From NCBI RefSeq assembly GCF_002161285.1, contig NZ_NFHH01000008.1, positions 62,001 through 126,000 on the forward strand: 64,000 bases of DNA, given 5' to 3'. Shown here piece after piece: positions 17,034 to 51,588 of the stretch. The notes under the pieces were generated by a model, which saw nothing but the letters and a program-made list of their open reading frames with translations, did no database searches and had not been told where the DNA came from. Position 1 is the first letter of the stretch, and each line of letters starts with the position of its first letter. The position numbers and the translations under genes are program-made. This stretch comes from Blautia sp. An81 (GTDB lineage Bacteria; Bacillota; Clostridia; Lachnospirales; Lachnospiraceae).

Positions 17034-18606
17034 CTTGAGTTTCCGCAAACTGCATTGAAAAGATAGATATGTCCTCTCCAAGTACCAATCTGCCGTTTTT
17101 TTGAGAGTTCTGGAATGGCAGTACCGAGAATAGAGGCACTTTTATAAGCCCCGCCGGAACCGGGCTTGGGGAGACATATTCTTTTATCTATTCAAACGGT
17201 CAGCTTAAGGCATAGTTGACGGTACGCCGGACGCTTTGTCCGGTACCAGAGCCGGATGCCCTCTTTGGCATATGACAGTATGCCGGAGATGCCTTTTGCC
17301 AGCCGATAATAGCAGAAACTGACTTTATCCTTGATTGGATCTGCTTCCTGTATGATTGAAACTTTCAGGGCGTTTGTCTCAGGACTTAATTCTTCCTGAG
17401 CTAAAAATGCCATAGCTAAAGTAATATAAAAGTTAAGCGCATTAATGGCTTCCAGTTTCCTTACACGGAAATTTTCAAACTGATAGATCTGCTTTTTACA
17501 ACGAAAATATTCCTCGATCCGCCATCTGGAAAAGTAAGTCCGGGCAATGCGGATCACATCCTCCTTTGAGCGGATTTCTTTGTTTGTGGCCAGCATCATG
17601 GGATGTTCCGTGATCCCATAGACCAGAATCAGATAAATATTCTTTCGAGAGGCAGTGATCTGAACCTTTACATGGGAAAGATATGCAGTATGTTCTTTGC
17701 CTTTATAGAAAACATCTGCTTTTATCTTGCCTTTCCTCCGGTTCCGCAGTTCCGTTGCTTTGGTCCATTTGTTATGGTAAAGCAGTTTCCGTTTAGAGGT
17801 CAGGCGGATCACATAATCCTGCTTCAGATGGTCGAGGATGAGAAATATCTTATTGTCATCATAACCGCGGTCCATAACAAAGGTGGCCTTTCCGAAAAGA
17901 GCAGCTGCCTGTTTGACAGCGTCAAACGTGATGGTGTTTACAGATTTATAGTCCTTCTCCGCAGAAGAATGGATTCGGGAAAAGACACTGATAGGATGCT
18001 TGTGGGCAGTCAGGGCACAGGCTTCCGTTACGTGGTAGCCTTTTTTATAAACATTTTTCGTCTGTGTACTTTCAGAGCCATCGCGGACAATACCAAGAGA
18101 CTCAAACTGTTTTCCATCAGGTTTTACAACATCACTTTCATCGATGAGGACTACTGGTTCGGATGGGACGAGTCTTTTTACAGTGTGAAGATAAGAAGCA
18201 GCTGCAGAGGCAGGAGTACCTGTTGAGAGATGATTGGAAAGACGTTTTACAGTATTGGCTTTATGTACTGTTTCATGAAGGTGATCGGAAATATCAGTAA
18301 GCAGGCAGCTTCTGGATGCCAGAATGCCATAAACCATATCTGCTGTAAACTTCCGGTCTGGTTTCGAAAGTCTGCGGGAGATTTTATTTGTAAAAGTCAA
18401 AATTTTTCTTTTCAAACAGTAAGTAATTGATGTAGAATTAGCCATAAGGAATCCCCTTTCTTTTTTGTTTAGTAAGGTTTTTGTTTGGTAGCTTAATTTT
18501 ACATCAAAAAGGATCAGGATTCCTTATATTTTGGACATTTTTTGCAAGTTGTGGATAACAAAATTCAGCAGATTTATCTTAGGGGATAATTCTGCGGAAA
18601 CTCAAG
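17034..18606 (-). mobile_element. IS4-family insertion sequence, complete, 1573 bp
   Basis: The ends are 14-bp perfect inverted repeats, CTTGAGTTTCCGCA at 17034 and its complement TGCGGAAACTCAAG ending at 18606. The element is flanked by identical 10-bp direct repeats TGTATTTTCC at 17024-17033 and 18607-18616, which fits IS4-type target duplication. It contains one transposase gene. The perfect duplications and intact gene suggest recent insertion. It lies between the glmS terminator and the MATE promoter and breaks neither. Confidence 0.9.
17192..18445 (-). CDS. IS4-family transposase
   Basis: A 417-aa DDE transposase filling most of the IS element. The catalytic triad is visible: VVLIDESDVVKPDG (first Asp), TFVMDRGYDDNK (second Asp) and the Y-x2-R-x3-E-x6-K signature in YFSRWRIEEYFRCKK (Glu). 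An N-terminal helical region of about 90 residues probably binds the ends. The frame is intact and the start is followed by MANSTSITYCLK; GAAAGGGGAT lies upstream on the minus strand. It is a cut-and-paste enzyme with hairpin intermediates in related elements. It should be functional as far as the sequence shows. Confidence 0.93.
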   Translation of the reverse strand: MANSTSITYCLKRKILTFTNKISRRLSKPDRKFTADMVYGILASRSCLLTDISDHLHETVHKANTVKRLSNHLSTGTPASAAASYLHTVKRLVPSEPVVLIDESDVVKPDGKQFESLGIVRDGSESTQTKNVYKKGYHVTEACALTAHKHPISVFSRIHSSAEKDYKSVNTITFDAVKQAAALFGKATFVMDRGYDDNKIFLILDHLKQDYVIRLTSKRKLLYHNKWTKATELRNRRKGKIKADVFYKGKEHTAYLSHVKVQITASRKNIYLILVYGITEHPMMLATNKEIRSKEDVIRIARTYFSRWRIEEYFRCKKQIYQFENFRVRKLEAINALNFYITLAMAFLAQEELSPETNALKVSIIQEADPIKDKVSFCYYRLAKGISGILSYAKEGIRLWYRTKRPAYRQLCLKLTV

Positions 18607-20171: not shown

Positions 20172-21938
20172 ATGCCCAAAAAGATATCCATCGGCTATCA
20201 GGAATTCGATGAAATTATGGAAAAACAGTTGTTCTATATAGATAAAACCTCCTTTATAAAGGAGTGGTGGGAACGGGAAGATAAAGTTACACTGCTTACA
20301 CGGCCCAGAAGATTTGGCAAGACTTTAATGATGAGTACAATAGAGAATTTTTTCTCTGTGGAAAGGTCAGAGAAGAAAGGGATGTTTGCAGGGCTGGATA
20401 TATGGAAAGAGGAGGCTTATCGAGAACTTCAGGGGAAGTTTCCGGTGATCAGTCTTACCTTTGCTAATGTAAAAGAACGTACTTTCCAAATGACAAAGCA
20501 GCGCATCGGACAGATATTGGCCGACTTATACAGCAAACATATTTATCTTCTGGAAAGCGGACTGCTGACCGCAGATGAAAAGAAGTATTTTCAGAGCGTT
20601 ACTATGGATATGGACGAAACGATAGCCACAATGTCTGTTCATAAACTGTCGGATTTTCTCAGCAGATATTATCAGAGAAAAGTGATCATACTGCTGGACG
20701 AGTATGATACGCCCATGCAGGAAGCCTATGTAAACGGATATTGGGATGAGCTGGTTTCTTTTATGAGGAGCATGTTAAATGCAGCATTTAAGACCAATCC
20801 ATATCTTGAGCGTGGACTTATGACAGGAATTACAAGAATCAGCAGAGAATCTATTTTTTCAGATCTGAATAACCTGAAGGTTATTACCACAACTTCCCGG
20901 GAGTACGGCGACTGTTTCGGATTTACAGAAGAAGAGGTATTTGCAGCTTTAGAGACATATGGGCTTTCGGATAAAAAGATGGAGGTAAAAAGCTGGTATG
21001 ACGGATTTACCTTTGGAGATAAAAGGGATATTTACAACCCATGGTCTATTCTGAATTATCTGGATAATAAAAAATTAGCCCTGTATTGGGCACCTGTAGA
21101 TTGTCATCTACAGGTCGCAGGCAGTCGCCAAATATCTGCAAGCAGCTACTTGGCTCGTTGCCATTGCGAAAAAACGAGTAGCAACAGTCTTGCCGGAAAA
21201 CTGATCCGTGAAGGGAGTAAAGGGATCAAGGAAAGATTTGAGGTGCTGCTTCAGGGAGGGAGCATTGAGGTCTCTATTGATGAACAGATCGTATATGAAC
21301 AGCTTTCTTTTAAGGAAAGCTCCATCTGGAGCCTTTTGCTGGCTGCAGGTTATCTGAAAGTAGCAGAGACAAAATTTATGGAGAATACAGGATATACGTT
21401 TTATGTGCTGAAGCTTACCAATAAAGAAGTGCACTGTATGTTTCTCTCGATGGTCCATGACTGGTTTTCCGACTATGACAGCGGCTATAATGAATTTGTG
21501 GAGGCTATGCTTCAAGGCGATGTAAAAGCTATGAACGTGTATATGAACCGGGTAGCATTAAATACCTTCAGCTTTTTTGACAGTGGGAAAAAAGCCTCTG
21601 CAGAAAATGAACCGGAGAGATTTTATCATGGATTTGTTTTAGGATTGATCGCTGATCTGGCGGAACGCTATACGATCACTTCAAACAGAGAAAGCGGTTT
21701 TGGACGCTATGATGTGATGCTGGAGCCGAAAACCGCTTCTGATGACGGGATCATATTGGAATTTAAGGTTCAGGATCATGAAGAGGAGAAATCTCTGGAA
21801 GACACCGCTCAGGCTGCCCTTAAGCAGATTGAGGAAAAAAGATATGCGTCATCTCTGGAAGCAAAAGGGATACCCAAAGAAAGGATACGCAGATATGGAT
21901 TTGCTTTTTCAGGGAAAAAGGTATTGATCGGAAAATGA
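20172..21938 (+). CDS. AAA-ATPase-like / PD-(D/E)XK nuclease protein with in-frame insertion
   Basis: A 588-aa protein of the AAA-ATPase_like plus DUF1703-type nuclease family. The N-terminus has [15 protein letters not shown] and the P-loop-like [13 protein letters not shown]; Walker B is [12 protein letters not shown]; a WYDGFTFG motif follows. The C-terminal nuclease core shows RYDVMLEPK and GIILEFKV. These multicopy genes have no firm function. Between YWA and TSSNSL, where relatives carry a single Asn, there are 26 extra codons (21093-21170) that belong to a dispersed repeat. The frame is preserved, so the protein may still be made. The ribosome site AAAGGAGG precedes the ATG. Confidence 0.85.
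21093..21170 (-). repeat. Dispersed repeat family 1, copy D, inside a coding frame
   Basis: Read on the minus strand it contains GCAACGAGCCAAG and, after a variable spacer, ATTTGGCGACTGCC, both identical to copies at 37947 and 51270. It ends in a hairpin CCTGTAGAT-GACA-ATCTACAGG. It is 78 bp, exactly 26 codons, and adds no stop codon to the host gene in the frame used. Confidence 0.8.
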
Positions 21939-37918: not shown

Positions 37919-37946
37919 CCCCTATTTTCCAATTTTAAGAAATATT

Positions 37947-38014
37947 TTATTCCCGCGAGCAACGAGCCAAGCGGGCATGCTCGCATGTCCATTTGGCGAC
38001 TGCCGCGAGGGTCT
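37947..38014 (+). repeat. Dispersed repeat family 1, copy A
   Basis: A 68-bp element beginning TTATTCCCGCGAGCAACGAG and ending GCCGCGAGGGTCT; nearly identical to copy B at 51270. It is followed by a hairpin CCGATGC-CT-GCATCGG and six T (38021-38043). That hairpin encodes the last codons of the MerR/methyltransferase gene on the other strand. Confidence 0.85.
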
Positions 38015-39227
38015 AATACTCCGATGCCTGCATCGGGTTTTTTGACTTACTGCGGCAGGCAAAAAAGCCGGCATCCTTGGTGATATAGAAGCCATCGGCA
38101 GTTTTTTTGGATACAAAGGATCGGAATTCTTTGTATCTGTCCAGAATGTACTGATTCTGATTTCCATGGCAGGACAGGATATAGGCTATAAGGGGCTCCG
38201 CCTGGGTGACCAGAAGACTGTCCTCATACCGGTGCCACTCTACATCTGAAAAATAAGGACTGAGAATAGAAGGACCGTTTTCTTTGCCGAATTTTTCATA
38301 AAGCTTGTCCGCAGAAAGTATAATACGGCTGTCAAAATCCTGGACCAGACGGCTGATTTCACACATATGCTGGGTTCCATAGGCACTGCAGTAGAAAATT
38401 CCGCCAGGCTTTAATACCCGCCGGATCTCTTTTAAGGTTTTATCCAGATCATCACAGTAAAACAGTACGTGATTGGCAATGACTGTGTGAAAACTTTCAT
38501 CAGGGAAAGGGATTTCCTGGCAGTCGAAAGCCTGAAAGGAAAAACGGGGATCTCCTCCCGCCAGGTTTCTCTTGGCGTCTCTGAGCATACCATCGGAGAT
38601 ATCCGAAAGTGTGAGAAAAATATTTTCTGGAATCTTTTCCTTGTTCTGAGACCAAAGGGAGCCGTCTCCGCACCCAAGCTCCAGGATATCCGTTCTTTCC
38701 TGGATATGATACATTCGGAACAGCCAGGGGAACCACCCCTCTTTATTTTGAGAATAAAGGCTGTGGAGCCGGATTCTGTCAGAAATATTTTTTGAGTTCA
38801 GATACTGGCCTTTCAGACTTTTTTCCATTCCTGTAAGGTGGATCAGATCCAGCATATGGCTCCAGTTAATACTGCGGTTTTCCTGAATCTCCCTGGTAGT
38901 ATCTTCTATAGCTTTTTCTACAAGCTGTAACTGTTCGATCCGGTCCTGGACCAGCTTCTGCTGGAGGGCGAGAGAATTCAGAGTAAAGTGATAGTCTGTG
39001 TCGTCGATGGTCATTTCCTTGATATCTTCCAGGGAAAAACCCAGATATTTCAGCAGCAGGATTTGCTGAAGCCGGGCAAAGTCCTTATCTGTATAGAAAC
39101 GGGATCCTGCCGGGGAGACGTAGGAAGGCTTTAAAATATTCTGTTTGTCATAAAAACGGACAGTACGCACAGAAATGCGGGCCATTTTGGCAAACTGTCC
39201 CGAGGTATAGTATCCTTCTGGTTTCAT
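38013..39227 (-). CDS. MerR regulator fused to SAM-dependent methyltransferase
   Basis: A 404-aa two-domain protein. The N-terminal 75 residues are a MerR helix-turn-helix (YTSGQFAKMARISVRTVRFY, then GSRFYTDKDFARLQQILLLK), followed by a coiled-coil helix. From about residue 170 a class I methyltransferase domain follows (ILELGCGDGSLW, then LSDISDGML and FHTVIANHVLFY). This architecture occurs in several Firmicutes, and the methylated substrate is unknown. Its last nine residues are encoded by a hairpin next to repeat copy A, so the natural C-terminus may have been altered. Repeat copy C lies in its leader. It may regulate the neighbouring 19-bp-spacer promoter. Confidence 0.85.
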   Translation of the reverse strand: MKPEGYYTSGQFAKMARISVRTVRFYDKQNILKPSYVSPAGSRFYTDKDFARLQQILLLKYLGFSLEDIKEMTIDDTDYHFTLNSLALQQKLVQDRIEQLQLVEKAIEDTTREIQENRSINWSHMLDLIHLTGMEKSLKGQYLNSKNISDRIRLHSLYSQNKEGWFPWLFRMYHIQERTDILELGCGDGSLWSQNKEKIPENIFLTLSDISDGMLRDAKRNLAGGDPRFSFQAFDCQEIPFPDESFHTVIANHVLFYCDDLDKTLKEIRRVLKPGGIFYCSAYGTQHMCEISRLVQDFDSRIILSADKLYEKFGKENGPSILSPYFSDVEWHRYEDSLLVTQAEPLIAYILSCHGNQNQYILDRYKEFRSFVSKKTADGFYITKDAGFFACRSKSKNPMQASEY

Positions 39228-39249
39228 AGGGGACTTCCTTATTAAATCT

Positions 39250-39301
39250 TTATTCCTGCGGGCATGCTTGTACGTCCATTTGGTGACTGCCGCAAGAGTC
39301 T
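39250..39301 (+). repeat. Dispersed repeat family 1, short copy C
   Basis: TTTATTCCTGCGGGCATGCT, then TCCATTTGGTGACTGCCGCA and AGAGTCT, aligned with copies A and B but lacking about 16 bp (the GAGCAACGAGCCAAGC part) and carrying several substitutions. It lies in the leader of the MerR/methyltransferase gene, so copies A and C flank that gene. Confidence 0.75.
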
Positions 39302-51200: not shown

Positions 51201-51271
51201 GCGGATATTTTTACATTCCTTCCAGATGTACAGAGCAGAAAGGAAAGGATGTAAAAATATCCGCTTTTTTA
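51201..51271 (+). terminator. Strong terminator after the 51-aa frame
   Basis: GCGGATATTTTTACAT (51201-51216) pairs perfectly with ATGTAAAAATATCCGC (51250-51265), extended by CCTT/AAGG, and is followed by TTTTTT. Repeat copy B begins at the end of the T-run. Confidence 0.85.
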
Positions 51272-51337
51272 TTCCCGCGAGCAACGAGCCAAGCGGGCAT
51301 GCTCGCATGTCCATTTGGCGACTGCCGCGAGGGTCTT
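51270..51337 (+). repeat. Dispersed repeat family 1, copy B
   Basis: A 68-bp copy identical to copy A (37947-38014) over nearly its full length. It starts exactly at a terminator T-run and is followed at 51338 by TTGACTC, then directly by a family 2 repeat. Confidence 0.85.
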
Positions 51338-51346
51338 TGACTCTAT

Positions 51347-51405
51347 GGAGCTGTTGCATTGATCGTATGTCAGGAACATTTATACATTTTATGCGAATTT
51401 GTCGA
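51347..51405 (+). repeat. Palindromic repeat family 2, partial copy
   Basis: GGAGCTGTTGCATTGATCGT then ATGTCAGGAACATTTATACA resembles the arms and loops of the copies at 21953 and 40460 and the terminator at 59210, but the closing arm is degraded. It lies immediately after repeat copy B. Confidence 0.55.
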
Positions 51406-51588
51406 GTACCCCTTTGAGACCATAGGGTAAAAAGCTCTCTGGGCGGGATGCTTTTACAGAGATTTTACGTAGTTTTTCTACAAATGCGATAGTTTAAAAA
51501 TAATTTACTGCTTAAAATATCAACTGTTCGAGTAAAAAAATGCGTGTAGAAAATTTACAAGATTTAAAAGAAGGAAGGAGAAAACGCC

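Follow-up and report, generated by a model that had tools for sequence, protein, structure and literature searches.

The window, a stretch of 64,000 nt from the genome of Blautia sp. An81, contains a gene for a 588-aa protein with AAA-ATPase-like and PDDEXK_9 domains, into which a palindromic element with two hairpins is inserted in frame. Further copies of the same element family occur in the opposite orientation in the second half of the window. The features are:

20172-21938, plus strand: AAA-ATPase_like/PDDEXK_9 gene with insert, 588 aa (open reading frame; Pfam PF09820 and PF08011)
21093-21170, plus strand: 78-nt (26-codon) in-frame insert, a two-hairpin element of a gene-specific subtype; absent from the G009 and G002 genes, present in six other genes
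21093-21114, plus strand: hairpin 1, CCTGTAGAT-TGTC-ATCTACAGG; its sequence varies among copies, with pairing mostly kept
21115-21169, plus strand: hairpin 2, a long imperfect stem with both conserved boxes and an internal loop
21120-21133, plus strand: conserved box GGCAGTCGCCAAAT (14-mer)
21149-21161, plus strand: conserved box CTTGGCTCGTTGC (13-mer)
37946-38047, minus strand (opposite to the insert): family copy with a longer hairpin 1 (covariance model, match at 37946-38013)
39249-39300, minus strand (opposite to the insert): weak, shortened family copy, 26 bits (covariance model)
51268-51335, minus strand (opposite to the insert): family copy (covariance model)

In the encoded protein, the AAA-ATPase_like domain spans residues 7-229 and the PDDEXK_9 domain residues 481-587 (Pfam), and the 26 inserted residues are located between these two domains. 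No solved structure was found for the host protein at E <= 1, and no defence-system model gave a match. An AlphaFold model of the host protein (five sequences) was unusable, with a mean pLDDT of 61, a pTM of 0.39, and values of approximately 21-37 in the blocks that hold the insert. A DDE transposase gene (PF01609; IS4-like according to NCBIfam matches that fall below cut-offs) is located 1.7 kb upstream of the nuclease gene, at 17192-18445 on the minus strand.

According to the original prediction, a 78-bp repeat had been inserted in frame into this gene, adding 26 codons and changing an Asn to Lys at the junction. Alignment with homologues from the same genus bore this out. The G009 gene, which lacks the insert, was identical to the window gene at 1677 of 1689 aligned nucleotides (99.3%), with a single gap of exactly 78 nt, and the G002 gene, 92% identical to the window gene, was also free of the insert. 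The insert-free site reads TATTGGGCGAACACGAGT, i.e. TATTGGGC-GAACACGAGT, and the filled site in the window gene reads TATTGGGCACCTG...GCGAAAAAACGAGT. From the empty site to the window gene, the junction codons changed from AAC (Asn) to AAA (Lys) and from GCG to GCA; over codons 268-333, two bases adjoining the insert were the sole differences between the window gene and that of G009. Since the insert is 78 nt long and free of stop codons, it adds 26 codons and the downstream frame stays open; judged from this open frame, the 26 residues would be translated. Inspection for translational bypass showed that the codon before the insert (GCA, GCC, or GAT) is unlike the in-frame codon that precedes the landing point (GAA or GGA). 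Because of this mismatch, and because the inserts of all seven genes described below are open and in frame, bypass is not suggested.

The two boxes had been described as common to the insert and to intergenic copies near 37947 and 51270. Exact matches of both were indeed present on the opposite strand, at 37959-37971 (13-mer) and 37991-38004 (14-mer) and at 51281-51293 (13-mer) and 51313-51326 (14-mer). With up to two mismatches, the chance expectation per window is 1.1 matches for the 13-mer and 0.4 for the 14-mer. Three matches of the 13-mer were reached in 12 of 100 shuffles, so that its count alone is unconvincing; five matches of the 14-mer were reached in none of 100. A covariance model built on ten copies (rough E-values, at most 150 candidates scored per genome) yielded 33 matches at E <= 0.01 in the window's genome, one of which was a partial match beside another copy. 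The 14-mer shuffles and these genome-wide matches ruled out that the boxes are chance matches and identified a dispersed family. The hairpin that the insert was predicted to carry at its end is likewise real and corresponds to hairpin 1, at the low-coordinate end.

Read on the strand of the insert (the plus strand of the window), the general form of the family is AGTCAAA-(hairpin 1)-CCTCGC-GGCAGTCGCCAAAT-(stem-loop)-CTTGGCTCGTTGC-TCGCGGGAATAAA. The conserved internal loop GCAACGAGCC / GGCGACUGC (consensus, opposite strand) resembles, by eye, a kink-turn with GA/GA pairs. No Rfam family reached its gathering score in the window, and a structured RNA known to Rfam was rejected as an explanation: the sole match in six loci was a chance-level miRNA, elsewhere in L001. 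With the covariance model, 16 of 20 genomes of the genus were positive for the element, with up to 93 matches in one genome. The exact pattern occurred in at least 120 stretches of named genomes and, among the matches listed, these belonged mostly to Lachnospiraceae genera or to unplaced Clostridia, Eubacteriales, and Firmicutes, with one in Emergencia (L222) and one in Muribaculaceae (L124). No element was present in G002, G006, and G019 at the place equivalent to the 37946 copy, which indicates that the family is mobile; in G015, G016, and G018, this place is occupied by other sequence. The element copy at 51268 is adjoined by a seemingly unrelated dispersed repeat of approximately 86 nt (51347-51432), which corresponds to no Rfam family and occurs at at least nine other places in the window's genome and at many in the genus. 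Sequence similar to this repeat adjoins element copies in L003 and L005, the latter being the 51347-51432 place itself.

A 78-nt insert at one codon boundary, YW(A/D)/N-TSSN (the slash marks the boundary), was found in seven genes from four genomes and two genera. All seven inserts are 78 nt long, stop-free, and in frame. When 397 genomes of the family were searched with a 60-residue query (insert plus flanks), full or near-full matches were confined to the window's genome and to G069, which belongs to another genus (g51) and has four such genes; a partial match in G060 proved to be an unfilled gene. A profile of the filled genes, applied to 394 relatives of G069, gave full-length matches in G069 (four), G416 (one; genome of contig CATJBQ010000040.1, L172, matched on coordinates), and G418 (one); in both searches at most 16 candidates were scored per genome, and filled genes were possibly missed. 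Plasmids and phages contained no match of the 78-nt subtype and viral contigs none of the subtype DNA pattern. Four viral loci retrieved with the profile matched 102 nt for 60 residues and thus represent unfilled homologues.

Identity among the filled genes was 82-99% for the inserts and 60-79% for the 250-nt flanks. The inserts of L274 and L276 differ at 1 of 78 positions, and their proteins are 60% identical. The subtype in the AAA genes differs from dispersed copies in hairpin 1 and in the stem ends. A DNA search for the subtype in the g51 genomes G069, G416, and G418 found near-full-length copies only inside the six filled genes, other copies in G069 and G418 being 78-81% identical over part of it. 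In G124, 33 matches covered the hairpin-2 part only, and the longer of the best ones were 93-98% identical. The immediate flanks of the site, TAYTGGGC and AAYACNAGC, are alike in nearly all members of the gene family. This AAA-ATPase/PDDEXK_9 family shows a striking expansion, with 65 match rows in G069 and 58 in G414 (fragments included). L350 (G069:C189) has a reverse-oriented copy of the general element family, next to or within an AAA-ATPase gene that is broken, and at a position other than that of the 78-nt insert.

The distribution of the insert was compared with gene trees, in which L281, a G069 gene with a short scar at the same site, was scored as unfilled. When the insert and L272 (left out for length) were excluded, a tree of 63 genes, whose bootstrap was not fully settled, required six changes for the six filled rows, and at least four of these were forced by well-supported branches. 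A quick tree of 57 rows, from which seven distant rows had been dropped beforehand, required seven changes for seven filled rows, and placement of these in one clade was rejected (p-AU 0.0002, 694 log units). These results suggest that the 78-nt insert repeatedly targets the YW(A)/NTSSN site.

An improbable alternative is one ancient insertion, selected for its structure and nearly unchanged, that was precisely lost many times. The structure is clearly kept, and the scar in L281 (G069:C33; YWA-FEEHKLQ-STN) is an in-frame remnant that resembles hairpin 1 only, which indicates that loss of the insert happens. However, a one-gain scenario on the 57-row tree with midpoint rooting entails 23 losses, one of which would have to be almost exact between the 99.3% identical genes. 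Moreover, insert differences were uncorrelated with gene distance (rho 0.11, p 0.64, 21 pairs), and the inserts of L274 and L276 show a single difference despite the distance between their proteins.

The strongest rival is short-tract conversion between paralogs, in which a single entry into one gene was followed by very short-tract homologous recombination (gene conversion, transformation) between paralogs or strains to the same place. All filled copies belong to one multi-copy gene family; in the three g51 genomes, the DNA search gave no near-full-length copy of the subtype outside this family. The near flanks that nearly all members have in common are slightly more alike among filled genes. 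In g51 genes, with L281 excluded, similarity over 1-30 nt of the right flank was 0.77 for filled-filled pairs versus 0.69 for unfilled pairs, and over 10-30 nt of the left flank 0.57 versus 0.47 (15 versus 136 pairs), a difference compatible with very short conversion tracts. Against this scenario, the window gene and its G009 counterpart differ around the insert only at the two adjoining bases, and within 12 nt of the insert L278 retains its own TSAN codons, which the related genes L294 and L296 also have. With gene-specific flanks so close, conversion tracts would have to end very near the insert, and we consider this scenario unlikely, albeit less so than an ancient insertion.

Pairing and coding were then compared among the seven inserts. 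Across 29 pairs in seven copies, 99% of the 203 cells were paired. Two-sided pair changes numbered five, versus 1.0 in shuffles, none of 500 of which was as high, and slid structures gave zero or one; further pair types showed no excess (seven versus 6.4 in shuffles, 223 of 500). Codon changes relative to the majority comprised 20 nonsynonymous and eight synonymous ones, which suggests that the amino-acid sequence is free to drift. This combination of kept pairing and peptide drift may be due to selection acting on the fold, or else to independent gains in which each incoming copy had its pairing already in place. Four of the seven filled genes look complete (L023, L274, L276, L309) and three have breaks that lie upstream of the insert (L272, L275, L278), so that the insert is not necessarily harmless. 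Of 17 unfilled G069 and G414 genes (L281 excluded), four look incomplete (L286, L288, L289, L302) and two have no N-terminus (L294, L296), in some cases possibly due to contig ends. The filled genes were not clearly worse off than the unfilled ones, in numbers that are too small for a conclusion.

Beyond this gene family, few in-frame copies were found inside long open reading frames. In only six of 172 element contexts did an open reading frame run at least 95 codons to both sides, a test that sees intact frames only and is blind to frame-breaking insertions. These six comprised two AAA genes, one helix-turn-helix gene, one possible EamA-like join, and two that are apparently false. The two false candidates were rejected by eye, L134 as a relaxed-pattern match in an ABC ATPase and L144 because its open reading frame looks non-coding. 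Two tandem EamA-like half genes appear, by eye, to be joined into a 399-codon frame by the element in L177, which has a long hairpin 1. Among 28 of the 30 loci from the window's genome (G000; two short ones were skipped), an open reading frame of at least 100 codons beyond both element ends occurred only in L069, which is the window gene. A second in-frame insertion, of 69 nt and with the element in the other orientation, was present in a helix-turn-helix gene of G009 (HTH_3, with membrane segments by eye; L098). The corresponding genes of G018, G002, and G000 and the G009 paralog lack these 69 nt, and the filled helix-turn-helix gene of G016 has stops. In-frame insertion was thus confirmed against empty sites in two gene families, AAA-ATPase and helix-turn-helix.

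These copies bear on a further alternative, namely that RPE-like elements land at random throughout the genome and that the loop between the two domains is merely where in-frame copies survive. On average over 184 copies, 5.46 of six frames are open in the element core, versus 3.40 in mononucleotide shuffles (the copies share descent, and the figure therefore represents one property and not 184 tests), so that survival in frame is easy. Consistent with such landings are also the second in-frame copy, in the helix-turn-helix gene, and L060 (G000:C45, in the window's genome), in which the final codons of a 344-codon open frame are supplied by an element copy. Nevertheless, seven identical boundaries are not expected from random landing, and the gene subtype is distinct in hairpin 1 and the stem ends and was found near full length nowhere else in G069, G416, and G418. 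We regard random landing as very improbable, and as the least probable of the readings considered. The behaviour predicted by analogy with Rickettsia was recovered in part: a dispersed palindrome does lie in frame within this gene of a Lachnospiraceae genome, but the insert belongs to a gene-specific subtype and is not a plain landing of the dispersed family.

Across 178 copies, hairpin 2 is flanked, on the other strand, by TTTATT, with each base at 69-96% and random sequence before it. The TTTATT was already present at the empty helix-turn-helix sites of G018, G002, and the G009 paralog and was absent from that of G000; the empty 37946 site reads TTTTAT in G006 and G019 and TTTAAT in G002. 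No target duplication was seen at the two readable empty sites (the helix-turn-helix gene and the 37946 copy), and no terminal inverted repeat was seen in the element. A target of 5-6 nt is insufficient to explain a subtype found only at this gene motif. The window's genome contains two intact-looking Y1 transposase open reading frames, within 1.5 kb of which no complete box pair and one box-like 11-mer without a second box were present. In the loci examined, Y1 matches occurred at two other places only, one of them broken, and no autonomous partner with the end hairpins of the element was seen beside the matches inspected. A flanking IS200-type transposase as the source of the element was not found in the window's genome. 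Degenerate Y1 pieces occur near a B. parvula copy (L154).

The best explanation, which we consider probable with modest confidence, is an RPE-like two-hairpin mobile element of which one subtype was repeatedly and precisely gained at one codon boundary of AAA-ATPase/PDDEXK_9 genes. Insertion polymorphism, identity of site and length, scatter on the gene tree, gene-specific near flanks, and kept pairing with a drifting peptide were all observed directly. The 78 bp would be a non-autonomous mobile element whose family has spread through the Lachnospiraceae, and the subtype would have been gained at the exact boundary within the conserved YW(A)/NTSSN motif by precise, DNA-level insertion, catalysed by an enzyme acting in trans. 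The asymmetric hairpins, the one-sided T-rich TTTATT, and the lack of target duplication at two empty sites suggest that this enzyme may be of the IS200/IS605 type. In a more far-reaching and tentative interpretation, the subtype is an enzyme-less, protein-coding homing element, specialised on the YW(A)/NTSSN motif of one multi-copy nuclease-ATPase family. It would move among paralogs, species, and genera through precise insertion and persist as an open 26-codon stretch.

Rickettsia provides the best-known examples of selfish palindromes inserted in frame. The present results show such insertion in a gut commensal family, with near-identical filled and empty alleles and repeated gain at an exact site. 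They provide a natural system for asking how a tiny, gene-less DNA element locates a single motif. They also allow one to ask how a protein tolerates 26 foreign residues, seemingly kept for a DNA or RNA fold and not for the peptide.

RPE have been described as small, multi-copy palindromic repeats that lie in frame within protein genes and leave the reading frame open (PMC10969869, PMC3733652). The Lachnospiraceae element is likewise a palindromic repeat that lies in frame within coding genes. It differs in its bacterial phylum, in the small number of copies seen in long open reading frames and, since RPE occupy unrelated genes, in the recurrence of its in-frame copies at one codon boundary of one gene family. 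A review on MITEs indicates that in-frame fusions by intragenic copies are not unusual (PMC10969869), and in-frame insertion alone is therefore not new. In contrast to bacterial MITEs in general, no terminal inverted repeat or target duplication was seen for the element, and it recurs exactly at one motif.

REP sequences and REPINs, which are mobilised by REP-associated Y1 (RAYT) transposases, also resemble the element in being high-copy, short imperfect palindromes with conserved mismatches. REP sequences carry a GTAG or CGTC tag at one palindrome end (PMC3733652). No such tag was present in the consensus flanks of 178 copies, which show TTTATTCC on one side and GGGTC... followed by hairpin 1 on the other. 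In contrast to the REP/RAYT system, the element ends in AGTCAAA... and TTTATT/CC, and it was not found beside the Y1 genes of the window's genome. With non-autonomous IS200/IS605 elements it shares asymmetric hairpins and the lack of a terminal inverted repeat and, as far as the two readable empty sites show, appears to share the lack of target duplication and a one-sided, fixed T-rich flank; it differs from them in its length of approximately 68-103 bp and in having no matching autonomous partner beside the Y1 matches examined. To our knowledge, specificity for a gene motif is not a known trait of the IS200/IS605 group.

In the open-licence literature, neither such an element family or sequence nor a description of exact recurrence of an in-frame palindrome at one motif was found in print. 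The element resembles homing elements, such as inteins and self-splicing introns, in its recurrent gain at a single conserved motif of a protein family and in its scattered distribution over the gene tree. However, a 78-nt insert is far too short to encode an enzyme of its own and must stay in frame, and nothing in its sequence suggests removal from RNA or protein. In-frame insertion as such was already known from other systems; the new part is the exact recurrence of a palindromic element at one motif.
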